Notes under the pieces: model-generated
Database searches by the model: none
The model's input: only the letters and a program-made list of their open reading frames with translations
Told to the model about the DNA's origin: nothing
Translations under genes and position numbers: made by a program
Shown: piece by piece, positions 14,185-45,260 of the stretch
Layout: each line of letters begins with the position of its first letter
Position numbering within the stretch: position 1 is the stretch's first letter
Source: Nitrospirota bacterium
Lineage (GTDB): Bacteria; JACPQY01
Length of the DNA: 58,726 nucleotides
Direction: 5' to 3'
Assembly: GCA_016190245.1 (NCBI GenBank)
Contig: JACPQY010000055.1
Span: forward strand, 1-58,726

Positions 14185-15306
14185 TCAACCGAAGAGGCTG
14201 AGCTGCGGAGGGGGCACGCGACGGGGGCGGAACTGCGTGACGTCCAGCGGGGGGGCGTCGCGAGGGATGCCGAGTCGGCGGGTGGCAAGTTCGAAGCGGC
14301 GGCGGATCAATTGGGCAAAGGGGTCGGTTCCCGCCTGGCGCCGGTGGAAGGCGGCGTCATTGCGGCGGCCGTGGTGCGTTTGACGGATGAGGCGCAGAAC
14401 CCGCCGGGACCGGAGCGCTTCCTCGGCCTCCAGCCACTCCTCGAAAAGCGTATCCACACCCTTGGGCAGGCGAAGGAGGGCGTAGTCTGCCCATCGGGCG
14501 TCGGCGTGCGCGGCGGCGGCGAGAATGGCTTCGATCTCGACATCGGTGAGGCCCGGAATGACCGGCGCGATAAGCACGCCGGCGGGAACTCCGGCCGCGA
14601 CAAGCTTCTGAACCGTTTGAAGGCGGCGAACAGGGGCGCACGCGCGGGGTTCCATGCGGCGCGCCAGCCTCCGGTCCAGCGTGGTGACCGAGAGAGTGAC
14701 GTGCGCGAGGCTCGCTCCCGCCATCGGAACGAGTATGTCAAGGTCGCGTTCCACGAGAGCGCTCTTGGTGACGATGGTCACCGGATGTCGGTATTCGAGG
14801 AGGACCTCGAGAATCCCCCGCGTGACGCGGCGCTCACGTTCGACCGGCTGGTAGGGATCAGTATTCGTCCCCATCGCGATCGGCTTGCAGACGTATCGCG
14901 GACGTCCCAGTTCCCTACGCAGGAGCGTCGGCGCGTCCGGCTTCGCGAAGAGACGGCTCTCGAAGTCGAGTCCGGCCGACATGCCGAGGTAGGCGTGGGA
15001 TGCGCGGGCAAAGCAGTAAATGCAGCCGTGTTCGCAGCCACGGTATGGATTGATGGAACGATCGAAGGGGATGTCCGGGGAGTTGTTTCGGGTGAGCACG
15101 GAGCGGGCGTGGTCGTCGGTGACGGTGGTTCTCAAGGGGGGTGGCTCAGGATTGGTTGGTTCCCAGCCGTCATCGAACGGCTCGTGGCGGTGCGGTTCGA
15201 AGCAGCCCGTGGGGTTGCTCATCGCTCCGCGCCCGCGGTGTGACCTTGCCCTCGGAGTGGCCTCGGATCTGGGCCGGTCGCTGCCGGGGGATGGAGTGCG
15301 GCGCAC
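14185..15306 (-). CDS. PA0069-family radical SAM protein
   Basis: A 373-residue radical SAM protein. The cluster motif is CEHGCIYC (in NPYRGCEHGCIYCFARASH), preceded by NNSPDIPFDRSINPYRG, the PA0069/Rv2578c signature. The N-terminal SHRGRGAMSNPTGCFEPH matches the family's usual RGRGA-SNP-GRFE start, so I keep the GTG at 15306. Members resemble spore photoproduct lyase; their substrates are not established. The GTG shares one base with the stop of the thioesterase gene (TAGTG), so the two are coupled. Confidence 0.9.
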   Translation of the reverse strand: MRRTPSPGSDRPRSEATPRARSHRGRGAMSNPTGCFEPHRHEPFDDGWEPTNPEPPPLRTTVTDDHARSVLTRNNSPDIPFDRSINPYRGCEHGCIYCFARASHAYLGMSAGLDFESRLFAKPDAPTLLRRELGRPRYVCKPIAMGTNTDPYQPVERERRVTRGILEVLLEYRHPVTIVTKSALVERDLDILVPMAGASLAHVTLSVTTLDRRLARRMEPRACAPVRRLQTVQKLVAAGVPAGVLIAPVIPGLTDVEIEAILAAAAHADARWADYALLRLPKGVDTLFEEWLEAEEALRSRRVLRLIRQTHHGRRNDAAFHRRQAGTDPFAQLIRRRFELATRRLGIPRDAPPLDVTQFRPRRVPPPQLSLFG

Positions 15307-18024: not shown

Positions 18025-18053
18025 TGTCTACCTCGCCGAGGCGGAACTGTCAA
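18025..18053 (-). promoter_or_regulatory. Strong sigma-70 promoter of SRPBCC gene
   Basis: On the minus strand: TTGACA (18048-18053), 17-base spacer, TAGACA (18025-18030). The -35 overlaps the stop codon of the upstream DUF2723 gene. Predicted transcription start is near 18018, downstream of the ATG at 18022, which decides the start of the next gene. Confidence 0.65.
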
Positions 18054-19948
18054 CCGGGAGATTTGAGATCTCTGAGGGCGCGTTGGAGAAGGAGCTGCAC
18101 GCGCCTGTCCGAGGGATTGGCGGCGAGCGCATCGCGGAGGGCCTCCACGTAGCTTTGCTGGTCTCCTTTGTCCGAGTGGAGGAGGGCAAGGTCGAGATAG
18201 AACCACTGCCACAGCTTGAGGGCGTGCCCGTCAACGACGCCGCTTGTGTCCGGTCGCGGTGGGCGATCGTGGTCTTGCGAAGCTGTGGACCGGGCGACTT
18301 GAAAGGCGGTTCCCAAGGGAATGAGATCGAGTTGTTTGAGGTGGGGGTCTTTCGCGGAGTAGTACCCACGGCTTCCCGGGGCAGGGGTGTGCCACCCGAT
18401 CCGTGTGAGCAGAACAGGCCGATCATTCCAGAAATGTTCGAGGAAGGATTTCGGCTGAGCTGCGGGGCTGACTTGGGCCTGCCCCTGCAGCCGACCGAGT
18501 TCCGGCGGGACCGGTCCAAGTGGGAGTAGGGTCTGGTTCACCACAAGCATATCCGGCCGCTGGTTCTCAACCACGAGAAGGGGGAGGAAGAGGAAATGCT
18601 CCGGAACATCGCGGACCACCAGCAACGCCGCCTCGGGCGCTCTCGAGAGGGCCTCCTGGGCGAAGCGCCTTCCGGCAAGGTCCAGTCTCGCGCTGTGGGT
18701 GGTGTGCGTCAGCGCCCAGACGGCGGCCATGGCCACAGCCGCTGCAGAAGGCTTGTGCAACTTCGCGAGCAGGCGGACCAGGCGTGTCGGCCATCGGGCT
18801 CCGGACGGGGGCGCCGGGCCGGCGGGATGATTGGCGTGCTTCGAGCCGGCCAAGGATGCGGCCAAGACGGGGAGGCTGTTGAGGCCCCAGCACGCGGCGA
18901 GGGCGACAATGAGATGCAGCGGGAGGGACTGGGTATCGGCCTCGCTGCCGGGGCTGTACATCCGCTGCACTGCCGAACCGCAAGCCACGAGGGCCAGGAA
19001 TGCCACGGGGAGCCAAGCCCGGCGGAGGGCTCGAACAGCGCCGAGCAGGGCGAGCAAGAGCACGATCCAGAGCAGGGGATCGGGAAAGCTCCGTCGCAAA
19101 TATTCCAGGGTATTGAGGTCGGCGGACAGGAAGGCGCGCACCAGGTCCGACGCGCGGGAGTCCGAGTTGAGGGGGAAGGGCGAGCTCAGATACTGCTTCC
19201 AGACGCCTGCAAAGGGGAACAGAACGGTAAGGCGAGGCCCACCGATGGCGGGCGCTTGGGCGGCCCTGATCGCGGTGGCGATGAGGGGAAGTAGGACGAT
19301 GCCGGATGCCGAGAGGAGCGCAAGGCCCCACGTGGCTTTTCGTCGGACCATGAATAAGAGGCAGCACAGGAGAAGAACCACACCCGGAAATGCCGCCGGG
19401 AAGTAGGACGTGGCTAGGGCGAGGAGGGCGATCGAGCGCAGAAGGCGTGGGCCTGAGGGCGAGTTGGCGCGCTCTCGGATGCCAGGGAAGAGCTGCGCAC
19501 ATGCCAGAATGACGAGAAGATGGAAAAGCATGGAGTTTTCGGCATGCGTGGCCTCGGCCAGCGGAATCTGACGAGTCGAGAGCCAGAGGATGCCTCCGCC
19601 CAGCGCCACGTAGCTCCAGGGTGTCGATCCGATGGCTTCCCCCGTGCCGGGGAGGCCCCAGGCTGCCGTGCGGCTGAGAATGGCCATGACCGCAGCGCCC
19701 GTCACGGCGTTCAGGACGACGATCCGGAAGGAGATGTTCCCCAATGGGATCAGTTCGATGAGTTTTCCCGCCAGCACGTACAGGTGGTACCCCATCCCGT
19801 GCAGCGTACCGAAGACGTGGGTGCCGGCGATGAGTTCGCCGCTATCCATGGATGTGACGTCGGGGGTAGCGTTGACGAGGTAGTGGGTGAGAGCACCCGC
19901 ATAGACCGCGAGTGCGAGCCATGTTGTCGGCGAGCGAAACCTCACCAT
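18050..19948 (-). CDS. DUF2723-type polytopic membrane protein (GT-C-like)
   Basis: A 632-residue protein with about ten hydrophobic segments. The N-terminal signature VTSMDSGELIAGTHVFG...GYHLY matches the DUF2723 family, in which the acidic loop resembles the catalytic Asp of GT-C mannosyltransferases. It probably transfers a sugar from a lipid carrier to an exported protein or glycan. The C-terminal ~200 residues are extracytoplasmic with a helical end (YVEALRDALAANPSDRRVQLLLQRALRDL), possibly TPR-like. The start is the ATG at 19948, 7 bases after a -10. Confidence 0.8.
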   Translation of the reverse strand: MVRFRSPTTWLALAVYAGALTHYLVNATPDVTSMDSGELIAGTHVFGTLHGMGYHLYVLAGKLIELIPLGNISFRIVVLNAVTGAAVMAILSRTAAWGLPGTGEAIGSTPWSYVALGGGILWLSTRQIPLAEATHAENSMLFHLLVILACAQLFPGIRERANSPSGPRLLRSIALLALATSYFPAAFPGVVLLLCCLLFMVRRKATWGLALLSASGIVLLPLIATAIRAAQAPAIGGPRLTVLFPFAGVWKQYLSSPFPLNSDSRASDLVRAFLSADLNTLEYLRRSFPDPLLWIVLLLALLGAVRALRRAWLPVAFLALVACGSAVQRMYSPGSEADTQSLPLHLIVALAACWGLNSLPVLAASLAGSKHANHPAGPAPPSGARWPTRLVRLLAKLHKPSAAAVAMAAVWALTHTTHSARLDLAGRRFAQEALSRAPEAALLVVRDVPEHFLFLPLLVVENQRPDMLVVNQTLLPLGPVPPELGRLQGQAQVSPAAQPKSFLEHFWNDRPVLLTRIGWHTPAPGSRGYYSAKDPHLKQLDLIPLGTAFQVARSTASQDHDRPPRPDTSGVVDGHALKLWQWFYLDLALLHSDKGDQQSYVEALRDALAANPSDRRVQLLLQRALRDLKSPG

Positions 19949-19955
19949 GGGGCCC

Positions 19956-19984
19956 ATTCTGGGGCGTGCAGCGAGGGAGGGCAA
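19956..19984 (-). promoter_or_regulatory. Promoter of DUF2723 gene, leaderless
   Basis: On the minus strand: TTGCCC (19979-19984), 17-base spacer, CAGAAT (19956-19961), 7 bases to the ATG at 19948. Confidence 0.5.
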
Positions 19985-28929: not shown

Positions 28930-28945
28930 CCGCGCTTTCGGGGTG

Positions 28946-28957: not shown

Positions 28958-31636
28958 GTGAGCGGGTTCGCGGTAGTCCAGCGTGCGTCTGGGTTCGGCG
29001 GGGCCAGAAACCGCCGGATGTCGGCTGCACTGTGGCTCGTTGTTGTCGCGTTGGCGATTCGGCTCCCGGGCTGGCTGGCCGAACTGGGATTTGACGAGGT
29101 GAACCGGTGGAGATCGGGAGACTTGGCTTGGCGGGAACTGTGGGGGGGCTCCGCCCGGCTTCTGGGCGGCAATGTTCTGTTCGCCCTGCTCGTGAAGGGC
29201 TTGCGAGGCGCGTTCGGCTCCGAGGTGTTGTTGAAGGTCCTCTTGGGCGGTGTTTCGTTGGGGGCTGGACTGCTGATGTGGTCGGAACTCAAGCGACGCG
29301 GGTGGGCTCGGCGGGCAGACGCCGTGCTGGCGATCACGATGCTGGCTCCTTTTCAGGTCATGCTTTCGACACAGTTGAGGGAGTATGCACTGGTGCAGGC
29401 GCTCGCCATTGTGGGCTGGGTGTGGATGGAGCGCAGGGGCGGCGACCGCATCGCAGGGCCGGCCGGCTTGGCCGCGCTGGGCGCGATTTCGACGTTGGTC
29501 TATCTGCCGTCGGTCACGTTCTGGATCGTCCTGGCACTTCACCGGTGGCGGGGAGAGCGGGCGAGAGCGCGAGAACTGCTCGCGCCGATGCCGGCCGCTG
29601 TTGCTGCCGCGTTGACGGTGGCCTCCTGGCCGGAAGCCTATCGGGGAGGATTGCAGGCATTCGAATCGCATCTGATCAACGACCCGTTCAAGCTTGCGGC
29701 CGACTTGGTGTTCTATGTTCAGACGTGGGTCTGGGTGCCGGAGGGGTCGGCGGCGGATGGGTTGCATCGTTTCCGGCTGGCAGGGGGGATTGACGGGTAT
29801 TGGGTGTACCGAGCGGGTTCCACGGTCGTCCCTTTCATCTTGGGCGGCTTGGTGCTTGGGCTGGCCATTTTGGGGGTGCGAGGACTGGGCGCCGTGGCGC
29901 TGGAACTGGTGCTGCTTGGGGCGGGACCGATCGCGCTAACCTTCGTTGCGGGCTGGCTGGCCACGGGAAGACCGGCGCTTCATTTCGCGGCGGCCCACGC
30001 CCCCTCAGCGCCGTTCCTCTATGCGTTGGTGGCACAGGGGCTGGCGGGAACGGGAAAGCCGGCGCGGGCGGCGATGGTGTGCCCGATGGTCGTGGTCTCG
30101 GCGATCACGCTGGGCCTGTACTCAATGGGTCTCCACCCCGAAACGTGTCATGGGCTTCCCGAGGTGCTTGCGCAGATCGAGCGATCGACGCCCTTGGGAG
30201 CGCCCGTTCTTGTGTCCCCCGGTCTGGTCTTGCCGTTTGTTCGCCATCAGGCCCCGGTGGGATTGGCGCAGAGGATGATTCCGGTGGGGCTGGACGCCAT
30301 GGAGGATCCGGACGGTTGGGCTTCGCTGTATCGGCCTCTCGGGGCTGGGGAGGTGGATGCCGCGGTCGCCCGCTTCTCTACGGCCGGCCGGGGGGTGCTT
30401 CTGGAAGTCCCGTGGGCAGCGCGGCGGAAAGATCCTGAGCGGCGGCTTTCGCGCGCGGTGGGGGGGGGGGACGCATCCACCACGCAGCCGCATCGGTGCC
30501 TTGAGGTGACCCGGTGGGTGAGGCCCGAGCCGCGGGCCGGGCACTGCCGGCGGGTGCGCGAGGCCATACGCTCCGGCGTGGCTTTTCTTCGGGACCGCTA
30601 CGGTCGGCTTGGGGTTCCGAACACGACGGTGTGGGACGTCAGAGACGCCTCCCGAACCATCAGCGTGATGGGGCTGTACGACCCGGCATGGATCTATCTT
30701 GCCCTTGAAGGTGTGGCGGACGGGGGCGAGCTCGCGGACCTTCGCCAGGGCTTGCTGCGTTTCATGAGTCAGCAGGTCGAGGCGAGCCAGTTGGTTCGTT
30801 TTCACGGGGCGGATTCGTCAACCTACGCGGCCCTGCGCTACGGCGATCTTCCGCGTCCGTTCGAGTTCCGCGGCCACCCTCCCGACATCGGCACAACCGG
30901 CTTGGTGCTACTCGCTCTCGAGAGCGGCGGGCAAGGGAGTTTTGAGAAGGCGGCGGAGACGATCAGAACGAACACGCAGCCGGGGGGGGGGGCGTTGGCG
31001 ACGTGGATTCCCGAAGGGGGCCCGATGACCGGGCACGACACCACGACGCCGGACGTGGCGATGAACGCGAACGCGCTCGAATTTCTCGCGCACCGCGGCC
31101 AAACTAGTCCGGAGGCCTGTGCCATGATATCGCGGACCCTCGCAAGAAACAGCCTTGAAGCCAGCGTGTACTATCCCTCGCCCGAGCTTGTGGGCTACTT
31201 CATCCACCGCGCATTGCGCGCCGGCGCGAGTTGCCCGGCCGATATCCTCCAGGAGAGGCTTGAGGCTTCGCTGCTTCCCATGGTGAGGGAGTCCCACACG
31301 GGCGGCGTGAACGACTCCGCGCTCTTGCTGGTGGCTTCAGCGTCGGACACGTTCGACCTCGATTCTCTGGCGCGGGCCGTGGTTGATGCTCAGCAATCCG
31401 ATGGCTCGTGGCCGATCGAGGCCGTGTATCGCACCGCGGTGGAGTACGAGCTGCCGGAGTCCGTTCGGTGGCTCCTGTTCGACCTTCCCCTCGAACGCGG
31501 CTGGGTGGGAGTACTCCGGAAGATGCCCCTTCCGCTGCTGCGCTACGGCTCGGCGGAGCTTTCGACCACGCTCGCGATCGAGGGCTTGACCGCCCACGAG
31601 CGGAGCGTGTGCGCACAGGATCCTCCTAATGAGTAG
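28958..31636 (+). CDS. GT-C glycosyltransferase fused to terpenoid-cyclase-like alpha/alpha toroid
   Basis: An 892-residue membrane protein. The N-terminal ~385 residues carry about ten transmembrane segments; the first periplasmic loop has FDEVNRW, the acidic pair expected of PMT/ArnT-like GT-C enzymes that use polyprenyl-phosphate sugars. The last ~350 residues look like a prenyltransferase/squalene-oxidase repeat toroid: DVAMNANALEFLA, repeated helical pairs, and the QW-type AQQSDGSWPIEAVY. Whether the toroid is catalytic or a binding platform is unclear. Two G11 tracts (30460-30470, 30982-30992) could switch the C-terminal half off by slippage. The 3' end overlaps the UbiA gene by 8 bases, so the two probably act together. 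GTG 28958 is chosen from the -10; GTG 28943 is the longer alternative. Confidence 0.75.
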   Translation: MSGFAVVQRASGFGGARNRRMSAALWLVVVALAIRLPGWLAELGFDEVNRWRSGDLAWRELWGGSARLLGGNVLFALLVKGLRGAFGSEVLLKVLLGGVSLGAGLLMWSELKRRGWARRADAVLAITMLAPFQVMLSTQLREYALVQALAIVGWVWMERRGGDRIAGPAGLAALGAISTLVYLPSVTFWIVLALHRWRGERARARELLAPMPAAVAAALTVASWPEAYRGGLQAFESHLINDPFKLAADLVFYVQTWVWVPEGSAADGLHRFRLAGGIDGYWVYRAGSTVVPFILGGLVLGLAILGVRGLGAVALELVLLGAGPIALTFVAGWLATGRPALHFAAAHAPSAPFLYALVAQGLAGTGKPARAAMVCPMVVVSAITLGLYSMGLHPETCHGLPEVLAQIERSTPLGAPVLVSPGLVLPFVRHQAPVGLAQRMIPVGLDAMEDPDGWASLYRPLGAGEVDAAVARFSTAGRGVLLEVPWAARRKDPERRLSRAVGGGDASTTQPHRCLEVTRWVRPEPRAGHCRRVREAIRSGVAFLRDRYGRLGVPNTTVWDVRDASRTISVMGLYDPAWIYLALEGVADGGELADLRQGLLRFMSQQVEASQLVRFHGADSSTYAALRYGDLPRPFEFRGHPPDIGTTGLVLLALESGGQGSFEKAAETIRTNTQPGGGALATWIPEGGPMTGHDTTTPDVAMNANALEFLAHRGQTSPEACAMISRTLARNSLEASVYYPSPELVGYFIHRALRAGASCPADILQERLEASLLPMVRESHTGGVNDSALLLVASASDTFDLDSLARAVVDAQQSDGSWPIEAVYRTAVEYELPESVRWLLFDLPLERGWVGVLRKMPLPLLRYGSAELSTTLAIEGLTAHERSVCAQDPPNE

Positions 31637-32477
31637 TCGCGGGTGGGCGCAGAGTCCGGTCGGTCGGGTTCCGGATGCTGTTTGGCTCACGGGGCTCCCT
31701 CTCATGGGGCTGTTGGCGTCGGCGGGTTGGACGGCCAACATTTGGACCGCGACCCAGGTGGGCCTTGCAGCGTTTCTGCTCGCCGCGCACGCGTTCTGGT
31801 TGAACGACCGGTCGGATGCGCGATTCGAGCGGCAGGGAGCGGGCCCGACCAGAGCCGCTCCGCCGGCTGCGATCGTGTGGGGCTCGGCGGCCTGCGCCGT
31901 GGGCGTCTTGCTGTCGATGAGGCGATCCACGATGGGATATGGGGTCTTCGTCCTGGTTTCCGCCTGGCTGTATTCGCACCCCAAGATCTACTGGAAAGGC
32001 ATCCCTGTCGTGTCCAACCTTCTGCACGCGCTCAGCGGCGCCGCCTTTTTCGCGCTGGGTTTCGTATCGGGGCCGGGCCGGGGGATGGAGGGACTTGGGC
32101 TGGCCGTCTACTTCGGACTACTCTTTGCGGGTGGTCATCTCTTCAATGAGATACGCGATCGCGAAGCCGACTGTGTGGCCGGCGTCCGGACGAATTGCGT
32201 TCGGTTTGGAATCGAGGCGGCGGGCAGGTGGGCGCTCGTCGAGATCGTGATGGGGACGTTGGGTCTGGCCTTGATGTCGGTTGGAGGCCGGGTGCCCGGG
32301 GTGTGGGGGGGGGCGGGCGTGGTGGCCGCAGCAGTTGTGGTGGTGGCGTACCGTGCCGCGAGTCGGGCGGAGTTTCGCCCCGACCCGGTGAGGCGGTTCC
32401 AGCGGCTCTACCGTGCGGCCTACGCGGGGATGGCCGGAGTCTGGTTCGTCGCGCCCCCGACTCTCCCTATGAATTGA
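31629..32477 (+). CDS. UbiA-family prenyltransferase
   Basis: A 282-residue polytopic membrane protein with both Asp-rich motifs of the superfamily, LNDRSDARFE and NEIRDREAD, which bind Mg-diphosphate of an isoprenoid donor. About eight hydrophobic segments. Members attach prenyl chains to quinone, chlorophyll, haem or sugar-phosphate acceptors. The overlap with the GT-C/toroid gene suggests it may supply or modify the lipid carrier that enzyme uses (inference). A G9 tract lies at 32305-32313. The stop is 89 bases from the convergent glycosyltransferase gene. Confidence 0.85.
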   Translation: MSSRGWAQSPVGRVPDAVWLTGLPLMGLLASAGWTANIWTATQVGLAAFLLAAHAFWLNDRSDARFERQGAGPTRAAPPAAIVWGSAACAVGVLLSMRRSTMGYGVFVLVSAWLYSHPKIYWKGIPVVSNLLHALSGAAFFALGFVSGPGRGMEGLGLAVYFGLLFAGGHLFNEIRDREADCVAGVRTNCVRFGIEAAGRWALVEIVMGTLGLALMSVGGRVPGVWGGAGVVAAAVVVVAYRAASRAEFRPDPVRRFQRLYRAAYAGMAGVWFVAPPTLPMN

Positions 32478-32566: not shown

Positions 32567-33712
32567 TCAGGCTGCGAGCCGGAGCGGGTTCTCCGCGGCG
32601 CTACAGAGCAGGCCTTCGTACCGGAGGGCGACATCGTCCCAGTTGTAGCGGCAGCGGAACTTGCGGAGCTCGGCGGAGGAAGGGGACCGGTCGTGGGCGG
32701 CGGCCATCAGGGCGCGCGCCAAGTCGGAGGGATCCTTCTTGAAGTAAGCGGCGCGCGGTCCGGCGACCTCGCGATTGAAGCACGTGTCGAGCACCGCCAC
32801 GCGGCATCCGGCGGCGAAGGCCTGCACGAGACCCGGGCTGGTACCACCGACCTCGTGCGCGTGGATGTACGCGGCGCAGTATCGCCGCAGCGTGGAGAGC
32901 GTGTCGGCCTCGTAGATCGGACCGAGGAAGCGCACGTGCGGCGGAAGCGTGTCGCGGATGGAACGGACGTAGCGGCTCCGGTACGCGACGCCCCCGACCA
33001 CCACGAGTTCCGAGGGGGTCTGCGCGAGGCGGAAGGCCTCCACGGCCAGGCGGATGTTGTTCTCCGGTTCGAGCCGGGCGATCATGAGAGCGTAGTCGAG
33101 CGGCTGCAGGTCGAATCGGGCCAAGTGAGAAGGAGGTCCCGGCCGTTCCCGAACCACACCATACGGGACATAGACGGAATCGCGGCCGAAGCGCGCAGAA
33201 TAGAAGCGGCGGATCTCGTGGGAGTCGGCGATGAGAGTCGTGGCGACTCGGGCCGTCCATGCGGCTGCGTGGCGATAGTAGGCCTTGACCACGGGCCCCC
33301 ACTTGGCTCGTTCCCACTCGAGCCCGTCCACGTTGACCACGACCGGGAAGCCCAGGCGTCGCAGCGCCGCCACGAGAGGTGCGTGTCCCACATTAAAGAG
33401 GAGGACCACGTCCGGGTTTTTCCGGACGACATCCGCCACGGCCAGCGCCGTTTGAGAGAAGATGTGGAAAGCCTTGGTCGGAAGTTCCGGCATGTAGGCG
33501 AGGTGCACCCCAGAGAGCCGGGCAGGGCGTGAGGGGTACAGGGAGCGATTGCAATAGACCGTCACCTCGTGGCCCCTTGCGGCGAGGCGCGTGGAGACCT
33601 CCTGCGCGCAGGTCTCGGGTCCGCCGTAGCGGCACGGGATACCCTTGGTGCCGAGGACGGAGATGCGGAGGGGGCGGGGCGGGGCGTGGGAGGAGTGTGC
33701 GGCTCGTTGCAA
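32567..33712 (-). CDS. GT4-type glycosyltransferase with DUF1972-like N-terminus
   Basis: A 381-residue cytosolic glycosyltransferase of GT-B fold. The N-terminus ISVLGTKGIPCRYGGPETCAQEVSTRLAARGHEVTVYCN matches the DUF1972/GT4 rhamnosyl- or mannosyltransferase group. The C-terminal donor site has IARLEPENNIRLAVEAF, YIHAHEVGGTSPGLVQAFAAGCRVAV (E-x7-E region) and LDTCFNREVAG. It probably builds exopolysaccharide or O-antigen. An ATG at 33820 is in frame but would run into the divergent gene; I prefer TTG 33712, 11 bases after a -10. Confidence 0.85.
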   Translation of the reverse strand: MQRAAHSSHAPPRPLRISVLGTKGIPCRYGGPETCAQEVSTRLAARGHEVTVYCNRSLYPSRPARLSGVHLAYMPELPTKAFHIFSQTALAVADVVRKNPDVVLLFNVGHAPLVAALRRLGFPVVVNVDGLEWERAKWGPVVKAYYRHAAAWTARVATTLIADSHEIRRFYSARFGRDSVYVPYGVVRERPGPPSHLARFDLQPLDYALMIARLEPENNIRLAVEAFRLAQTPSELVVVGGVAYRSRYVRSIRDTLPPHVRFLGPIYEADTLSTLRRYCAAYIHAHEVGGTSPGLVQAFAAGCRVAVLDTCFNREVAGPRAAYFKKDPSDLARALMAAAHDRSPSSAELRKFRCRYNWDDVALRYEGLLCSAAENPLRLAA

Positions 33713-33723
33713 GGTCTTCGTTG

Positions 33724-33753
33724 ATCGTAGCAGAGGGGTTGAGGGGAGCGCAA
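33724..33753 (-). promoter_or_regulatory. Promoter of GT4 gene
   Basis: On the minus strand: TTGCGC (33748-33753), 18-base spacer, TACGAT (33724-33729). Divergent from the promoter at 33770-33798. Confidence 0.45.
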
Positions 33754-33769
33754 AGAGTCCACGGGCGCG

Positions 33770-33798
33770 TTGCGGGGGTGCGGGCCGTCTGTTAGGAT
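33770..33798 (+). promoter_or_regulatory. Promoter of propeller lipoprotein gene
   Basis: TTGCGG (33770-33775), 17-base spacer, TAGGAT (33793-33798), 12 bases to the GTG at 33811. Confidence 0.55.
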
Positions 33799-33810
33799 GG
33801 TGAGGGTGGT

Positions 33811-36732
33811 GTGGCGCCACGAGTCATGGCTTGGGGCAAACATTCGATCCTTTTCATCGCGATAGGGCTCGCCTCTCTGGCGGGCTCGTGTGGTGACATC
33901 CGCAAGGGCGCGGCGGCCAAGGCGGACCTTCAGGGTACCGTGATGGACTCCGCCACGAAGGCCCCGGTGCAGGGCGCGAAGGTGACCGTGTGGTCGGTTG
34001 ACAAGCCGGAAGATCCGCCCGTGGTCGAGGCCGTGACCGACCAGAAGGGGGCCTTCGCGTTTCCGGTGCTGAGGGAGGGGCAATACAAGGTCGTTGTCGA
34101 ATCGTCGTCCCACGTGCGGTACGAGACAACCGTCGCCATTGTGGACACGACCGGTGGGGAGGCCGCGGGGGTCGATCTCAAGATCCTTCTGAATGCCAAG
34201 GGCGACATGTATCCGGAGTGGGCGACCTACGTTTCGAGGGGCGCGGTTCGGGCCGTGGCCCGCGCCAAAACGGGAGATCTGTGGGTGGGGTCGGATGGAG
34301 GACTGGTGAGGATCCGTCCCGATGGTGGGCAGGTGGGGTACACGAGCTCCGAAGGTCTCCCCGCCAATCGTGTGTATGCGCTTCTCGCCACGGACGTCCA
34401 TCTCTGGGTGGGGACGGAGGGCGGCCTGGCGCGGCTGGCTTGGGACTCCGAGGAGTGGGCGCTTTTCAGCTCGGAGAAGGACGGCTTGGCCGGGGACAAG
34501 ATCTATGCGGTGGATCGAGGGCCGGACGGCTCGATCTGGCTGGGGACCGACGGCGGTGTGAGCCGGCTTCAAGGCTACTATTGGACGAGCCACCGCAAGG
34601 GAACGGGCACGGTGAAGAACGCGTGCGGGGCGGTGGAGTTGCCGGATCCTGAGGTGCTTGCCCTGGCTTTCGATCCCGAGGGCCGCACTTGGTTCGGCAC
34701 CGCGAACGGCCTGGCGAGCCTCGGGAACAACGCGTGGTGCTGGTATCTCTCCACGTGGCCGAACGTGGGTCTGGCGGACAATCGGATCGAGCGGGTGAGG
34801 ATCCTCCCGGGCGCGTCGATCGAGCGCAGCGTGAAGTGGCTGGCGACCGGGTTGGGGGTTTCCTCGTTCGACGGTTGCCGGTGGACCTCGTACGGGCCTG
34901 ACCTTGTCACGGAGGAGTATCCACCCGTCTCGGAGAGTCGATGCTCAGAGGCGGCGTTCACGTGCGATCCGACAAACACGAATTTGACGTGCACGGTGGA
35001 CGGGGCGGCCTGCGGGTCGGACCCCACGGCGTGCGTGGCCAAAGGGGGCGAGTGCAAAGGCATCTGCACGCTCCTGAAACCGACGTGCGACCTCGGGCGG
35101 GCGACCTGCGTGACGCCATCCGCCACCTGCACGCTGCCTGCGAAGGGGTGTACGGCCGACGGGAGCGTCTGCACGGACGAAACGGCGTGCCAGCAGAAAG
35201 GGGGACAGTGCATTCAGCTCAAGATGCGCTGCGAGGGACAGGTGGCCAACTGCGTCCTACCGGCGCTCGTGTGCCCCGGCCCGGGCTGCGATCAGGCGGA
35301 GGCGAAGTGCGAGACCGCAGGAGCCGTGTGCACCTTGCCGCAGCGCGCCTGTGTGCTCGCCGCCAACTCGTGTGAGGGGCAGGGGGTGTGCGCCCTGCCC
35401 GCTCGGCAGTGCGTTTTCCCGCAGGAGCGGCCCTGTCCGCTGGTATCCATCAAGGTGTCGGCGGACCAGATGCCGGATGGTCGGTTCTTCACGGTCTGGG
35501 CGGACACGGACGGCACGGTGTGGGCCGGCACGCGCAGCGGGCTGCTGCGTTTTTCAAACAATCAATGGAGCTGGCTCAAGAGCGAGGTTCCGCAGGTGCC
35601 TGTTTCCATGATCACACGCGAGGGCAACGATCTGTGGGTTGGGATCGATGGGGGTTTGAAGAAATACGACGGCTCGAATTGGACCGACCAGGCCCTTCCG
35701 CCGGGCCCCATCGGTCCGGACATCCGCGATCTCGTTCACACGGACGCGGGGACGTGGCTGGCCACGGATCGCGGCGTCAGTTTCTTCAAGACCGACGGGA
35801 CGTGGACCCACTACACGACTGCGCAGGGACTTCCCTCGGACAACGTGCGGGCGATCGAGCGGACCCCCGGAGGCGAGGTCTGGGCGGGCACGCCTACCGG
35901 GCTGGCGAAGCTGGTGAACGACAAGTTTGAGGCGCTCTGCGCCGCGGAGAAGTCCGCGCGGGATACCTGCATCACGAACTGCCAGGCGGGAGATCCCAGC
36001 AAGGTCTGCACGGGAACATGCAGCACTCAGGAGACGGCCTACCAAACCTGCTCGGCCCCTTATCAGGACGTCCGCGCGCTCGAGCCCGGGTCGGGGAACG
36101 CGCTCTGGATCGGGACTTCCAAGGGCCTGCTCCTCAGGGATGGGAGCAACGTCACCAGCTACACGGGCTCAACCGGGTTGCGCGGTAACCTGGTGACCGC
36201 TCTCTATGTGGAATCGGACGGGGCCTTGTGGGTGGCGACGGCCGTAAGCCGCGACCCCACCAGTACCGCGTGCCCAAAGCCGGATCCAAAGACGGGATGC
36301 CAGTTTACCGGCGGGCTGAACCGCATCAAGGGTTCGGAGATTCTCTCCTACACGGGATCGAACGGTCCGCTGGGCAAGATCGTGTATGCGATCGCCCGCG
36401 GCCCCAAGGGGCGACTTTGGGTGGGAACGGATCAAGGCCTGAGCATCTACGATGGAAACGCCTGGTCGCATTACGGCCAGAACACGACCAAGCCGGCGGA
36501 GGGGCCGGGCGGGAAGCGCGTGTATGCGATTGCCGTGACCGACAGGGAGGAGGTGTGGTTGGGGACGGACGCCGGCGCCAGTCGCGGGACGGAGCCGGGT
36601 GGCCCGTGGGAGCACCTGACGAGCACGAAGGGGTTGGCCGACAACAAGGTCGTCGTTGCGAGGACGCGCTCGGGGAACGAAATCTGGTTGGGTACGCCGA
36701 AGGGGGTCAGCGTCTACCAGCCGCGGCAATGA
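33811..36732 (+). CDS. Lipoprotein with two-component-regulator-type propeller and Cys-rich insertion
   Basis: A 973-residue lipoprotein (lipobox SLAGSC; ATG 33826 is a possible start). Residues ~30-120 form a carboxypeptidase-regulatory-like beta-sandwich. The rest is a beta-propeller of Reg_prop repeats (LWVGSDGGLVRI, LWVGTEGGLARL, IWLGTDGGVSRL, VWAGTRSGLLRF, LWVGTDQGLSIY and others, at least ten), the sensor blade type of hybrid two-component kinases, here without any kinase. The propeller is interrupted at 34943-35445 by ~165 residues with more than 25 Cys (CTVDGAACGSDPTAC and similar), and again by a short Cys-rich loop near 35935-36055. Probably extracellular ligand sensing or adhesion. 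First of four consecutive surface genes. Confidence 0.82.
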   Translation: MAPRVMAWGKHSILFIAIGLASLAGSCGDIRKGAAAKADLQGTVMDSATKAPVQGAKVTVWSVDKPEDPPVVEAVTDQKGAFAFPVLREGQYKVVVESSSHVRYETTVAIVDTTGGEAAGVDLKILLNAKGDMYPEWATYVSRGAVRAVARAKTGDLWVGSDGGLVRIRPDGGQVGYTSSEGLPANRVYALLATDVHLWVGTEGGLARLAWDSEEWALFSSEKDGLAGDKIYAVDRGPDGSIWLGTDGGVSRLQGYYWTSHRKGTGTVKNACGAVELPDPEVLALAFDPEGRTWFGTANGLASLGNNAWCWYLSTWPNVGLADNRIERVRILPGASIERSVKWLATGLGVSSFDGCRWTSYGPDLVTEEYPPVSESRCSEAAFTCDPTNTNLTCTVDGAACGSDPTACVAKGGECKGICTLLKPTCDLGRATCVTPSATCTLPAKGCTADGSVCTDETACQQKGGQCIQLKMRCEGQVANCVLPALVCPGPGCDQAEAKCETAGAVCTLPQRACVLAANSCEGQGVCALPARQCVFPQERPCPLVSIKVSADQMPDGRFFTVWADTDGTVWAGTRSGLLRFSNNQWSWLKSEVPQVPVSMITREGNDLWVGIDGGLKKYDGSNWTDQALPPGPIGPDIRDLVHTDAGTWLATDRGVSFFKTDGTWTHYTTAQGLPSDNVRAIERTPGGEVWAGTPTGLAKLVNDKFEALCAAEKSARDTCITNCQAGDPSKVCTGTCSTQETAYQTCSAPYQDVRALEPGSGNALWIGTSKGLLLRDGSNVTSYTGSTGLRGNLVTALYVESDGALWVATAVSRDPTSTACPKPDPKTGCQFTGGLNRIKGSEILSYTGSNGPLGKIVYAIARGPKGRLWVGTDQGLSIYDGNAWSHYGQNTTKPAEGPGGKRVYAIAVTDREEVWLGTDAGASRGTEPGGPWEHLTSTKGLADNKVVVARTRSGNEIWLGTPKGVSVYQPRQ

Positions 36733-39160: not shown

Positions 39161-39358
39161 GCGCCCGGACAGCCCCACAGGTGTCGCCGGCGGCAGGCGG
39201 AGCGGTTGAGGTGGGGCGGAATTCGCGAGTCGTTGGGTCGGGAGTCCAGGGTGGCGTGAGATACGTCACAGACAAGGATGAGACGTTAGGCTATGTTGGT
39301 TGAATCCTAAAGTGCGCCGCGGGGCCTGCCGAACATCCGGCGAAAAGGGGGATTTCAG

Positions 39359-39387
39359 TTGCAAGTCATGGGCGGATTCCTTATGCT
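39359..39387 (+). promoter_or_regulatory. Promoter of giant kelch/RCC1 lipoprotein gene
   Basis: TTGCAA (39359-39364), 17-base spacer, TATGCT (39382-39387). Transcription would begin near 39394, so the start is GTG 39402 or ATG 39405 with an 8-11 base leader. Confidence 0.6.
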
Positions 39388-39404
39388 TTCCTGCGGGCTT
39401 GGTG

Positions 39405-42400
39405 ATGAGTGTGTGGGGCGCGCGCCACGGTTCTGATGTAGCTTGGGCGTGGCCCAGCCTCGCCCGCCGATCGGGCGCGCGGTTCCCGCTCCTTCTCGCT
39501 GTCTTCTCTCTCGCCATCAACACCTGCGGGGGGGGGAGCTGTCTGCTCCTACCCGAGGATGAGGAGAAGGCCGGGCTGGCAGACTACGTTGCACCCGCTC
39601 GCCAGACGGTGAGCGGGGTCGTTCGAGACGATCTCGCGGGAGGCGGCGTGGTGGGGGCCCATGTGACTCTCGCCGTGTGGGCTCCGACCAGCGGCAAAGC
39701 GGCGGTCGCCCGGGGCGGTGGCCGCACGCGGCCCGTCGTGAAGAGCTACGAGGCCGTCACCGGAGCGCGCGGGGAGTTCGCCATCCGCGACGTGCAGGTG
39801 CTCCAAGGCTCCTCGGCGCAGCTTACGATCAAGCGAGACGGCTATTCGGAGACGTTCAAGAGTCTCGCGTACGAGGAGCTCATCGGCGGCGAGATTCACG
39901 CCAGCGACATCGCGCTCAGGCCGGTCATGTACTCCCGGGCGCTGGACAGCCGGAGGTCCGTGCAGACTCCCGACGGCTCCGTCCAGATCCGTCTCTCTGA
40001 AAAACTTCAGTGCGATCCCGCGTGCACGCATCCGGACGACCCGGTGCTGGCGGCCGGACCGACCACTGTGGTGGCGGATGTCTCGGTGATCGATCCCACC
40101 ACGGATGCGGACGCTTTTCCCGTGGGTTTCGAGGGAACGTACACGACCGATGAGAAGGGCAACGTCACCCTGTGCCATGCCCCGCCGGGCAACTCCGAAG
40201 CCGCCAAGACTCTGAGTGTGAACGCCTCGGCCGTGTCGGGCCACTTGGCGCACGGCGACACGATCGGCGCCTGCGCCGGCGATGCGGCGGCGGCGAAGGA
40301 AGCCGAGGCGGACGAGGAGGCGGTCCAAATACCGGTCCAACTCGAGCCCGTCGCGGCGGCTCACTTCGACCTTCGCACGAAGTCGGGGCACATGATCGAC
40401 GCCCTGGTCAAACCGGACACGCCGGCCGAGGTGACCATCGAGGTTCCGCCGACGCTCCAGGAGAAAGTTCTCGATGCCTACGACAAGGGCGAAAGGACCA
40501 TGCCCGCGTTTCATTTCGACGGTGGGGCCGGCACATGGGTGAGGGACGGTGAGGCGCGGCTCGTGGTGGTCGAGGAACAAGCCGTGCGGACCAAGATCGA
40601 CGAGGACGGTGAGACCACAGAGGTGAAGGAGCGCGTGCGAAAAGTTCTGGCCGAGGCCGAGGTGACCAAGACGTGCTGGGTGGTCGTGGCCCAAGAGAAG
40701 CAGGGCGTCTGCATTGAAGGCAAGGTGATCGGGCCGGACAAGGCGGCGGCCAAGGGAGTTTGGGTGCGCGGTGACGGTCTCCGGGGACACGCGAGGGCGT
40801 ATGCGCGGACCCGTCCGGACGGAAAGTATCGCTTGTTTGTGGCGCGGGGCGAAACGGTGCGGATCAGCGTTCACCGGAGGAAGGAGGAGAGCGACACGGA
40901 GGAAGGCGAGGGGCTCCTGGTGGACGCGGGCGCCGAGCCATCCAGCGAAGGATGCATAGAAGCCGCCGATCTCGCGCTGCCAGACCACGGGACGATCACG
41001 GGTCGGCTCCTGGACCGCTCCGGCCAGCCGGTTCAGGGGACCGTGGTCACCTCCCAGGGTGAGGCCGCGGACATCGGCGCGGATGGCGCGTTCTCCGTGG
41101 ATGCCGACGCGGACACCGAGTCGTTGCGCGTGGTGGGCTTGGCGGGTGGTCAGCCGGTGTCTCTGGAGGTCCCGGTGGGAGCCGTGGCCGAGGGCGCGAC
41201 GGTGGATGTCGGCACGGTGACCGTCGCTGCTCCCGTCGCGATCACGGGCGAAGTTAGGGAAGAAGACGGCACCCCCATCGTCGAAGCGGTGGTGGAAGCG
41301 GCGGGGGCCGTGACCGAGACGGACTCGTCCGGAAAATACACGATCAGCGTACCCGCCACCGACAAGCCGGTCGAGATCACGATCTCGGGCATGACGCAGG
41401 AGGGCGAGCCGCTGGCCGCGACCATCGAGGTTTCCACCGCCGGCGCCGCTCAGGTGAAGGCGCCGGAAGTGAAGATCGATCTCGATCCCATGTGCGTAGC
41501 CGGCCGCGTGGTGGATCATCGAGGCCGCGGGCTGCGGGGATCCACCGTGCGCGTGGGTTCGTCCCAAGTGGTTCTGACGGATGACGAAGGACTCTTTCGC
41601 GCCACCGTGCTCGCGGATGGCGACGTGGCCGTGAGCGCGCGGCACCGCGAGGGGGCCATAGATGAAACTTTGGAACGGATCGTGCGCCCGGTAAAGGGTG
41701 GAGCGTGCGAGGAGGTCGAGTTGCGCCTTGATACCCGGCCCGCGTGGGTCTCCGGGCGGGTGACGCGCGGCTCCGGCGGGCGCGGCATCGTGGCGCGTGT
41801 TCGCAGGGCCATTTCACGAGGCGACCCCCTGGAAGGCGTTCAGGTGGTTTCCTCGAACGGCGCCGTTACCACGACGGAGTTCGACGGCCACTACAGGATC
41901 CCCGTGGAGCGCGACGCCTCGGTGACGCTCGTGTTCACACTCGGCGAGGCGCGGGAGGAAGAAGCCGTGACCACGCGCGAGCGCGGCTCCGTGACGTTCC
42001 TGGACGTGGAGATGGACATCGAGGACGCGCCCCCGGTCGTGCGCGAGGTCGAAACCAGTTCGGAGGCAACACGGCCGGGCGGCACGGTCGAGATCGAGGT
42101 GACCGTGGCGGACGAGGGGGCCATTAAATATGAAGTGGCGTCTCCAACGGGAGGCACGGTGGACACGACGGGCGGAACCGCGCCGGCCACGGAGGAAGGC
42201 ACCACCGTGACGGTCACGTGGAGCGCGCCGCAGGAGCCGGGCGTCTACGATGTGCCCGTCACGATCACGGATGCGGGCGGTCAAACGACCACGGCAACGG
42301 TCACGATCGAGGTGCACACGGAGAATGAAGCGCCCAGCGTGGTGGATGTGGCGGCGACCACCGAAGCGCCCGTGCCCGGGGAGAAGGTGACGGTCACGGC

Positions 42401-45260
42401 CGCGGCGGACGATTCCGAAGGCGATGCGCTCACCTACGACTGGGCCCTGACGGGCTCGGACGGCACGGACCTGAGCTCCCTGCTCAGCGAGCCCACCGAG
42501 GGTGCCGTCGCTTTCGTAACGCCCATCGTGCCCGAGGGCACCGAACTGACGCTTTCGGTCGAGGTGACGGACGCCCTCGGGGCCACCACCACGAGCACCA
42601 CGGAGATCGAGGTGTCCGACGGGTCCCTCCGGCCGGAGGCTGAGACCGCGGTTCCTGAGACGACCGTGGCGACAAAGCCGCCCGACGTCTCGACGGCGAC
42701 CACTCAGACGGTCACGTTCTCGAGCGACGTGGCGGGCACGAAGTATCAATGCAGTCTGGACGGAGCGGAGCCGAAGCTCTACGAGGCCTCGGCCACGTTC
42801 GAGGGGCTGTCGGACGGCACGCACACCTTGGTGGTGCAGGCGCTGGCGCCCGACGGCAGCGTGGACCCCGTGCCCGAGGTGATCACATGGGTTGTGGACA
42901 CGAACGCGCCCGTCACGAAAATCACGCAGAAGCCGGACGCGGTCACGAAATCCACCACGGCGACATTCGCCATCGAGGCCGGCGAGAAGGGGGCGACCTA
43001 CGAGTGCCGGTTGGACAGCACGGCGCTCGCGACCTGCGTAGGGCGCACGTGCACGCCGCCGGCGGGCGACCTTTGGACGAAGCGGGCGCCGATGCCCACG
43101 CCGCGCAACTGGCCCGCAGCGGCGGTGGTGGGCGGCAAGATTTACGTGATGGGCGGTTGGGGCGGCACGTCGCCGACCCAGTACGCCCTGAGCGTCGTGG
43201 AAGTATATGACCCTGTGTCGGACAGTTGGTCCAGCGCGAAACCGCTTCCCGCGCCGCGCAGCCGCGCGGGAGCGGCGGTGATCGGCGGCAAGGTCTACGT
43301 GGCGGGCGGCATCAACAAGGCAGGCGGCCTGAAAACGTTGGAGGTCTACGATCCAGCCACGGATCAATGGACCACGAAGGCCCCCGCGTTGACGACACGG
43401 TGGGAGAGCGCGGTGGCGGTGGTGGGAGAGCACCTCTACGTCGTCGGGGGAGGCTCGAACGCCGCCGAGGAATATGACCCCGCGACCGACAAATGGACCT
43501 CGAAGGCCCCGCTCTCCTCAAACCGGTGGGATGTGGGCGTGGCCGCCGTCGGCGGAAAGCTCTACGTGATGGGCGGGATCGCCAGTGGCAGCACGCTGGC
43601 CGTCGCGTCGCTGGACGAGTTCGACCCCTCATCGAACACGTGGACAACGAAGGCATCCATTCCGACGGCGCGGAGGTTCGTGGCGGCCGCGGAGGTGAAC
43701 GGCAAGATCTACGCCCTCGGCGGAACGCCCAAAGGGGCAGGCTCCTTCGGCGTTGTGGAGGAGTTCGACCCGGCCACCAACACGTGGACCGCGCGGGCCG
43801 CGCTCCCCACGCCGCGCAACGGCGTGGCGGCCGTCGCGCTCGGCGGGAAGCTCTTCGCCGTGGGCGGCTTCGCGGTCGGCACCCAGGCGGCAACGAACGT
43901 CCTCGAGGAGTACACGCCGCCACCGACTTCCGCCGCGTGTTTGCAACCGCTGGTGACCGTATCCTATAGCGGCCTCGCCGAAGGTTCGCACACGTTCGAG
44001 GCCGTGGCGATTGATAGCACCGCCAAACGCGATCTCACGCCGGAGACCTTCACGTGGACCGTGGACCTGACGCCACCGACCTTCGCCGGCGCGACGGCGG
44101 TCAGCGCGGCAGGGGCGGGCAAGGCCACGCTCACGTGGTCCGCAGGCTCCGACACCGTGACGCCGGCTGCGTCGCTCGCGTACGACGTGTGCGTGAGCAC
44201 AAAATCCGGTGGGTGCTGCGGAGATTCTTTCACCGCGGCCCACGCTTCAACGGCAGGTTCAACTTCATTCACAGTCGAGGGTATGTCGGGAGGACTCGTC
44301 CACTACTTCGTCGTGAAGGCGAGGGACGCCGCAGGCAATCGAGATACGAACCAGGTGGAGCGTTCCGTCACGGTCCCTGCCGCGGCGCCCGCGCGGCTCC
44401 CGGGACTCGGCTCCTATATCGCACCGGTCCGAAACTCCAAGGCCGGCGCCCAGCACGCCTGTTCAGTCGATCCCTCCGGGGTGGTTGCATGCTGGGGCCT
44501 GAACGCCTTGGGGCAGCTCGGGACCGGAAACTGGCTCGATGCTCTCGTGCCGTCGCCCGTGATCGGTCTCGGGCCGGCCTCGTCGGTCGCCGCCGGCGGG
44601 TATCACACCTGCGCGCTCGAGGCGGGCGGCACGGTGAGTTGCTGGGGATCGAACGCCTTCGGGCAGCTTGGAAACGGCTCGTGGTCGGATGCGGAAACGC
44701 CGGTGAGGGTTCCCGATCTGGACGGGGTGACGGGGCTGAGCGCCGGCGAGCGCCACGCGTGCGCGTTGCTGGGCGATGGCCGCGTGAAGTGCTGGGGCTG
44801 GAACGCCTATGGACAGGCGGGGGACGGGACGAGCACTGATGCCCGTGTTCCCGTTGAGGTGAAGGGCGTGGAGGCGGCCGCGGATATTTCGGCCGGCGGT
44901 GGCCACACCTGCGCCGTTCTCTCCGACGGGCGCGTCACGTGCTGGGGCCACAACGGCTACGGCCAGTTGGGAAACGGGACGCTCGGCGACTCGCGGTTAC
45001 CCGTCGAAGTGGTGGGGATCCGGGACGCCGTGGACGTGGAGCTGGGGGCCTTCCACAGTTGCGCCACGGTCCGATCCGGAGCCGTGAAGTGCTGGGGCCA
45101 CAACGGCTACGGCCAACTTGGGACGGGAACACTGGAGGATGCGGCGATTCCTGTGGATGCGCCGGATCTGTCCGGCGCGCGGGAGCTCACGGTGAAGGAC
45201 TTCTTCACGTGCGCGACGAAGACCGGCGAGCGGACTTGCGTTGGCTATGGAGCGAAGTGA
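39405..45260 (+). CDS. Giant multidomain lipoprotein with inserted kelch propeller and terminal RCC1 propeller
   Basis: A 1951-residue lipoprotein, the largest gene here. A G9 tract (39528-39536) encodes the Gly residues right after lipobox Cys (INTCGGGSC). Domains: repeated carboxypeptidase-regulatory-like sandwiches (~60-870), two PKD/cadherin-like domains (~875-1075), an Ig-like domain (~1100-1165), a second Ig-like domain split by a six-repeat kelch propeller (~1215-1510; repeats PRNWPAAAVVGGKIYVMGG, VYDPATDQWTTKAP and so on), a fibronectin-III-like module (LTPPTFAGATAVS...), and five RCC1-type repeats (~1680-1951; HTCALEAGGTVSCWGSNAFG, KCWGHNGYGQLG). The next gene is a paralog lacking both propellers. 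Probably a surface adhesin or receptor. The next gene starts one base after the stop. Confidence 0.85.
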   Translation: MSVWGARHGSDVAWAWPSLARRSGARFPLLLAVFSLAINTCGGGSCLLLPEDEEKAGLADYVAPARQTVSGVVRDDLAGGGVVGAHVTLAVWAPTSGKAAVARGGGRTRPVVKSYEAVTGARGEFAIRDVQVLQGSSAQLTIKRDGYSETFKSLAYEELIGGEIHASDIALRPVMYSRALDSRRSVQTPDGSVQIRLSEKLQCDPACTHPDDPVLAAGPTTVVADVSVIDPTTDADAFPVGFEGTYTTDEKGNVTLCHAPPGNSEAAKTLSVNASAVSGHLAHGDTIGACAGDAAAAKEAEADEEAVQIPVQLEPVAAAHFDLRTKSGHMIDALVKPDTPAEVTIEVPPTLQEKVLDAYDKGERTMPAFHFDGGAGTWVRDGEARLVVVEEQAVRTKIDEDGETTEVKERVRKVLAEAEVTKTCWVVVAQEKQGVCIEGKVIGPDKAAAKGVWVRGDGLRGHARAYARTRPDGKYRLFVARGETVRISVHRRKEESDTEEGEGLLVDAGAEPSSEGCIEAADLALPDHGTITGRLLDRSGQPVQGTVVTSQGEAADIGADGAFSVDADADTESLRVVGLAGGQPVSLEVPVGAVAEGATVDVGTVTVAAPVAITGEVREEDGTPIVEAVVEAAGAVTETDSSGKYTISVPATDKPVEITISGMTQEGEPLAATIEVSTAGAAQVKAPEVKIDLDPMCVAGRVVDHRGRGLRGSTVRVGSSQVVLTDDEGLFRATVLADGDVAVSARHREGAIDETLERIVRPVKGGACEEVELRLDTRPAWVSGRVTRGSGGRGIVARVRRAISRGDPLEGVQVVSSNGAVTTTEFDGHYRIPVERDASVTLVFTLGEAREEEAVTTRERGSVTFLDVEMDIEDAPPVVREVETSSEATRPGGTVEIEVTVADEGAIKYEVASPTGGTVDTTGGTAPATEEGTTVTVTWSAPQEPGVYDVPVTITDAGGQTTTATVTIEVHTENEAPSVVDVAATTEAPVPGEKVTVTAAADDSEGDALTYDWALTGSDGTDLSSLLSEPTEGAVAFVTPIVPEGTELTLSVEVTDALGATTTSTTEIEVSDGSLRPEAETAVPETTVATKPPDVSTATTQTVTFSSDVAGTKYQCSLDGAEPKLYEASATFEGLSDGTHTLVVQALAPDGSVDPVPEVITWVVDTNAPVTKITQKPDAVTKSTTATFAIEAGEKGATYECRLDSTALATCVGRTCTPPAGDLWTKRAPMPTPRNWPAAAVVGGKIYVMGGWGGTSPTQYALSVVEVYDPVSDSWSSAKPLPAPRSRAGAAVIGGKVYVAGGINKAGGLKTLEVYDPATDQWTTKAPALTTRWESAVAVVGEHLYVVGGGSNAAEEYDPATDKWTSKAPLSSNRWDVGVAAVGGKLYVMGGIASGSTLAVASLDEFDPSSNTWTTKASIPTARRFVAAAEVNGKIYALGGTPKGAGSFGVVEEFDPATNTWTARAALPTPRNGVAAVALGGKLFAVGGFAVGTQAATNVLEEYTPPPTSAACLQPLVTVSYSGLAEGSHTFEAVAIDSTAKRDLTPETFTWTVDLTPPTFAGATAVSAAGAGKATLTWSAGSDTVTPAASLAYDVCVSTKSGGCCGDSFTAAHASTAGSTSFTVEGMSGGLVHYFVVKARDAAGNRDTNQVERSVTVPAAAPARLPGLGSYIAPVRNSKAGAQHACSVDPSGVVACWGLNALGQLGTGNWLDALVPSPVIGLGPASSVAAGGYHTCALEAGGTVSCWGSNAFGQLGNGSWSDAETPVRVPDLDGVTGLSAGERHACALLGDGRVKCWGWNAYGQAGDGTSTDARVPVEVKGVEAAADISAGGGHTCAVLSDGRVTCWGHNGYGQLGNGTLGDSRLPVEVVGIRDAVDVELGAFHSCATVRSGAVKCWGHNGYGQLGTGTLEDAAIPVDAPDLSGARELTVKDFFTCATKTGERTCVGYGAK

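Follow-up and report, generated by a model that had tools for sequence, protein, structure and literature searches.

The C-terminal domain of membrane glycosyltransferases of the GT-C type is usually located outside the cytoplasm. In the three-component systems of pentofuranosylation, UbiA-type enzymes put a pentose on polyprenyl phosphate, which is then used by GT-Cs, and some of these GT-Cs carry extracytoplasmic carbohydrate-binding domains (PMC11127046). With respect to the class II terpene cyclases, the drimenol synthase AsDMS has been dissected residue by residue: the mutants D331A/N, D333N and Y427F are inactive (PMC12365925; PMC9128629; D333N in PMC9128629), and the diphosphate is contacted by Y373, R378, R380, R425, Y426 and R513, activity being lost in Y373A, Y426A and R378A and retained in R380A, R425A and R513A (PMC12365925; PMC9128629). 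A literature search on fusions of a GT-C with a terpene cyclase returned nothing relevant, and the literature yielded no description of a GT-C with such a toroid as its accessory domain.

The locus considered here lies in a window of 58,726 nucleotides (the whole stretch of DNA that was analysed) from a Nitrospirota bacterium, and is centred on an open frame at 28943/28958-31636 of the forward strand, which encodes 892-897 aa, with a GT-C half fused to one formed by an alpha/alpha toroid. The features discussed below are the following:

28958-30496, forward strand: GT-C (PMT_2/ArnT-like) membrane glycosyltransferase half, about aa 1-513, homologous to the GT-Cs of genome G001, with an FDEVNR loop (aa 45-50) and an LREY motif
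30554-31633, forward strand: alpha/alpha toroid half, about aa 533-892, of the class II terpene cyclase beta-domain family, from profile matches and bacterial relatives
30884-30898, forward strand: DIGTT (aa 643-647, codons GAC ATC GGC ACA ACC) at the position of DxDTT, with the general-acid Asp replaced by Gly, from alignment with AsDMS and 11 relatives
31046-31075, forward strand: TPDVAMNANA (aa 697-706), corresponding to the family signature DxVVNANV, of which D205, N209, A210 and N211 are invariant in alignment A3
31391-31411, forward strand: QW-type motif QQSDGSW (aa 812-818), from the sequence and the toroid alignment
31629-32477, forward strand: UbiA-family prenyltransferase of 282 aa with NDRSD and DREAD motifs (Pfam UbiA, E 9e-19)
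32567-33820, reverse strand: convergent GT4 glycosyltransferase (Cps2T-like), whose ortholog in G001 (50% identity) has the same position
18050-19984, reverse strand: TMEM260-like O-mannosyltransferase, which is the window's second GT-C and also has a counterpart at the locus of G001

The fusion of 892 residues put forward by the original prediction is borne out by the open frame, by the homologies of both halves and by a GC3 that is uniform along the fused gene (0.72-0.83, close to the 0.78 of the UbiA gene) and shows no break at the joint, the position of which agrees with the ends of both the GT-C and the toroid families in the alignments. The first ATG occurs at 29018 (aa 21), about where the GT-C homology begins, and is a possible true start, in which case the protein comprises 872 aa. 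The fused protein gives no match in Pfam or NCBIfam and contains no HAD domain, its N-terminal half being the GT-C. Genome searches, which are samples with much mutual overlap, reveal the fusion in the window genome only (an assembly 85% complete, in 86 contigs), so that the survey proposed for the fused gene beside UbiA yields this single case; a separate search for relatives produced a lone chance match of 39 residues among genome contigs (L010), and none among viral contigs or plasmids.

On the basis of its sister proteins, since the window sequence is too diverged to be assigned alone, the N-terminal half is a GT-C of the PMT/ArnT kind. Residues ~20-512 are homologous to six tandem GT-Cs of G001, the sole other genome in the family of the window genome, with 22-31% identity and E-values down to 5e-32, and these GT-Cs stop around aa 512 of the window protein, i.e., at the start of the toroid. 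The FDEV loop noted earlier is found at aa 45-48, and D46, E47 and R50 (window-protein numbering) are invariant among the seven members of the GT-C alignment A2, in which a [KR]EY-type motif is nearly invariant too. The window half taken by itself matches no Pfam family, and its identity as a GT-C follows from three of the seven aligned members, which reach Pfam PMT_2 (best E 1.5e-6); a search of the PDB with the GT-C profile gave no meaningful match. Matches to this profile occur in 87 of 386 genomes, the toroid being attached in the window protein exclusively.

By profile homology, the C-terminal half is a class II terpene cyclase beta toroid. The profile, built from eight members including the window protein, the others being remote, stand-alone relatives, retrieves among solved structures AsDMS (9mhs, E 3e-23), AstC (5e-18) and squalene-hopene cyclase (1e-11), followed by the weaker MstE (1e-5) and copalyl diphosphate synthase (1e-4); a single-sequence AlphaFold model of the toroid has a pLDDT of 36. 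The predicted toroid with a QW-type motif (QQSDGSWP from aa 812) is thus recovered, the suggested comparison with squalene-hopene cyclase gives homology, and that with protein prenyltransferases gives none: no beta subunit of these enzymes appears among the 34 PDB matches of the profile, and that reading is discarded. A TPR or other fold, named at the outset as the outcome that would overturn the assignment, is ruled out by the cyclase profile matches.

The catalytic residues tell a different story from the fold. At the position of AsDMS D333, where Asp is kept in 11 of 11 aligned relatives, the window protein alone has Gly (aa 645), encoded by GGC, one base away from GAC, a loss of the acid Asp that the DxDD-type motif check discloses and that had gone unnoticed in the original prediction. 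The six diphosphate-contacting residues Y373, R378, R380, R425, Y426 and R513 correspond to W, G, T, V, Y and V, so that one of six is kept. Because the D333 equivalent is Gly and the diphosphate-binding arginines are absent, the window toroid is probably not a working cyclase and, since the AsDMS mutants are inactive, it cannot cyclize by the known mechanism; it might bind something instead. Among the 11 relatives, Y373, R378, R380 and R425 are kept in none, and R513 in that of G288 alone, from which it appears that the bacterial toroid family as a whole has probably left the diphosphate substrate, the window protein having lost the acid besides. The equivalents of D331 (D643) and Y427 and several aromatic pocket positions are nevertheless retained in the alignment, which indicates that the pocket may not be fully relaxed.

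Depending on the lineage, the toroid relatives in other genomes occur in distinct settings. In the phylum of G278, where they are found in 10 of 68 genomes, they are apparently exported and lipoprotein-like, with DADxT and DxDLVVNANV motifs (L035, L036, L038-L043). The toroids of G150, G288 and G386 begin with a signal-like sequence and that of G094 with an anchor; at the level of the loci, a lipobox or signal peptide is apparent in L038, L041 and L028, and an N-terminal anchor in L014. These exported-looking relatives fit a toroid located outside the cytoplasm. A short second toroid-like fragment, possibly a remnant, lies in G094 (L014:4576-5058, E 1e-5), separated by about 4 kb from the gene of the full-length toroid. 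In the G113 genus, the toroid possesses an N-terminal nitrile-hydratase-type leader-like region (Pfam NHase_alpha, E 8e-5), and its neighbours, judged by eye, comprise a YcaO-type protein, a halogenase-like protein and peptidase-ABC transporters. Such leader-fused toroids, with intact DLDST (L013:7570-8889, also L024, L025, L026, L050 and L056), are present in 12 of the 16 genomes of their phylum, all of one genus, in a setting that resembles a YcaO/peptidase-ABC-transporter/halogenase RiPP cluster. At the 17 other toroid loci examined, neither a GT-C of the window family nor a relative of the window UbiA was found nearby, which rules out linkage of toroid and UbiA as a general rule; the UbiA genes lie away from the toroid in eight toroid-bearing genomes, and those of G001 are located elsewhere as well.

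The UbiA gene starts with an ATG at 31629 and overlaps the stop codon of the fused gene (TAG, 31634-31636) by 8 bases, exactly as first described, and the two genes may be translationally coupled. In a scan of the window genome, its product is the third UbiA and the one that diverges most; a search at the protein level gave no relative in G001. For each of its three closest relatives (33, 26 and 30% identity), the gene immediately upstream on that strand codes for a YfhO-type or PMT_2-type protein. Close members of the subfamily occur in six of the seven genomes of the G315 phylum, and in all six a GT-C gene directly precedes the UbiA gene, the GT-C of G467 being split over two frames; a 4-base overlap is common in these pairs, and in several of the genomes the gene of a geranylgeranyl-reductase-like FAD protein stands next to the pair. 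The order GT-C, UbiA, geranylgeranyl-reductase-like gene recurs in L121:4385-8341, L122:3521-6342 and L162-L165. More distant UbiA relatives are mostly devoid of a GT-C neighbour. As to the UbiA neighbour, whose lack of conservation was to refute the original prediction, GT-Cs stand next to members of this subfamily in other lineages too, and the other toroid loci examined give no sign of it. The UbiA subfamily fits no named equivalog. Its profile recognizes AfUbiA (4tq3, 1e-13) and DGGGPS (6m31, 2e-9) far above the Rv3806c-type 8j8j (0.005), and the window UbiA matches neither of the NCBIfam phosphoribosyltransferase models NF008976 and NF008977, to which one A4 member is weakly matched. Since AfUbiA and DGGGPS are matched better than the decaprenyl-phosphate phosphoribosyltransferase, a donor-making role of UbiA is not indicated by its sequence.

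The GT4 ortholog at the same place makes the window and G001 loci syntenic and, together with the TMEM260-like GT-C common to both, leads to reading them as two versions of one glycosylation locus. Between the GT-Cs and the GT4 gene, G001 has a GT2 and the window has the UbiA. The GT2 family includes enzymes that charge polyprenyl phosphate. In G001 (L011:10066-20000 and L012:1-4420), the six tandem GT-C genes are broken by two radical-SAM/B12-type genes before the GT2. Radical SAM proteins are encoded in the window as well, at 154-1533 and 14185-15306 on the reverse strand, and one of the two has a SPASM domain; the window further encodes a protein of 1986 aa with Kelch and RCC1 propeller repeats (39300-45260, Pfam E down to 1e-61) flanked by carboxypeptidase-regulatory-like domains. 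The scan of 25 window proteins identified no phosphatase, HAD type included, and no flippase.

Taking into account that UbiA and GT-C are a known functional pair, the window is read as encoding a GT-C for surface glycosylation to which a decayed cyclase toroid was added as an accessory domain outside the cytoplasm, beside a UbiA acting on the lipid side, a proposal to which an even chance may be given. The GT-C, presumably facing the periplasm, would take its sugar from a polyprenyl-phosphate carrier. The toroid, a descendant of a class II terpene cyclase gained at what is predicted to be the extracytoplasmic C terminus of the GT-C, has most likely ceased to cyclize anything, given the loss of the acid Asp and of the phosphate-binding residues, and would serve as a non-cyclizing domain binding the acceptor or the lipid, by analogy with the carbohydrate-binding domains of other GT-Cs. 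The UbiA would supply or modify the prenyl lipid, either a lipid-linked donor or a prenylated acceptor. A bolder and rather unlikely version sees in the toroid an extracytoplasmic, non-cyclizing cyclase descendant that grips or chemically tailors the lipid carrier or prenylated acceptor built by UbiA, the whole being a new lipid-handling glycosylation module.

The toroid might on the contrary have remained a prenyl-lipid enzyme, cyclase-like, isomerase or hydrolase, using another acid, within a single dedicated lipid-carrier pathway of UbiA, toroid and GT-C. The retained D331 and Y427 equivalents and aromatic pocket positions, the overlap of the UbiA gene and the geranylgeranyl-reductase-like gene following the UbiA-GT-C operons of another phylum, which renders prenyl-lipid chemistry plausible at such loci, would all agree with it, but the Gly peculiar to the window protein, the missing head-group arginines and a toroid family living elsewhere without UbiA or GT-C make it quite improbable. 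In this respect, the dedicated isoprenoid pathway of the original prediction is weakened by a toroid that is probably not a working cyclase: its UbiA and GT-C part may hold, whereas its middle member, supposed to handle isoprenoids as a cyclase, appears catalytically disabled.

Another way of accounting for the pairing of UbiA with a GT-C bearing an extra extracytoplasmic domain (PMC11127046) is to consider UbiA as a polyprenyl-phosphate phosphoribosyltransferase, in a three-component pentofuranose-adding locus like those of Rv3806c/AftB or Citrobacter ORF15/ORF12, with the toroid replacing the carbohydrate-binding domain. The weak profile match to 8j8j and that of the A4 member to the NCBIfam models point in this direction; the much stronger matches to AfUbiA and DGGGPS, the failure of the window UbiA to match those models and the lack of a recognised HAD phosphatase or flippase among the window proteins scanned render it distinctly doubtful. 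Finally, the fusion could be accidental and without selected function, a GT-C gene having recently become joined in frame to a cyclase-like gene in decay, or could come from an assembly error, as its occurrence in a single genome, the acid codon one base away from GAC and the incomplete, fragmented assembly might suggest. A toroid half open over 360 codons with uniform GC3, its family-invariant residues kept, and a joint fitting the ends of both families argue against such an origin, which is accordingly considered unlikely.

If the toroid of the preferred reading binds the lipid carrier or the acceptor, it would show a cyclase fold turned into a non-catalytic part for lipid or glycan recognition. 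A family of cyclase-related toroids that have intact DxD motifs and are apparently exported has also come to light, and the recurrent UbiA-GT-C gene pair is a candidate source of new lipid-linked sugar donors.

Compared to the known systems, the window GT-C half resembles the PMT_2/ArnT enzymes by its acidic FDE loop right after TM1, its multiple transmembrane segments, its [KR]EY-type motif and the tandem paralogs of the sister genome, but differs at the C terminus, where a toroid stands in for the small periplasmic or carbohydrate-binding domain. The toroid is homologous to AsDMS and AstC over ~300 residues and shares with them the first Asp of DxDTT, the catalytic Tyr and the QW-type and GSxxxSTAxxxEAL motifs, whereas its proton-donor Asp is changed to Gly, its phosphate-binding Tyr373 to Trp, the Arg ligands are absent and a GT-C takes the place of any HAD domain. 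Of the novelty originally claimed for the combination, the toroid as an extra domain is the element for which the literature searched gave no precedent, while UbiA enzymes with GT-Cs bearing extracytoplasmic domains have been described, e.g., Rv3806c with the GT-C arabinosyltransferases and Citrobacter ORF15/ORF12 (PMC11127046); the window shares this pairing, with a UbiA not close to the phosphoribosyltransferase models, no recognised phosphatase or flippase, and a toroid as accessory domain. The GT-C/UbiA/geranylgeranyl-reductase-like operon of the G315 phylum differs from the window by a GT-C of another PMT_2 family without toroid and, in several genomes, by the reductase-like gene that comes next, and resembles it in that a UbiA of this subfamily immediately follows a GT-C, there often with overlapping genes.
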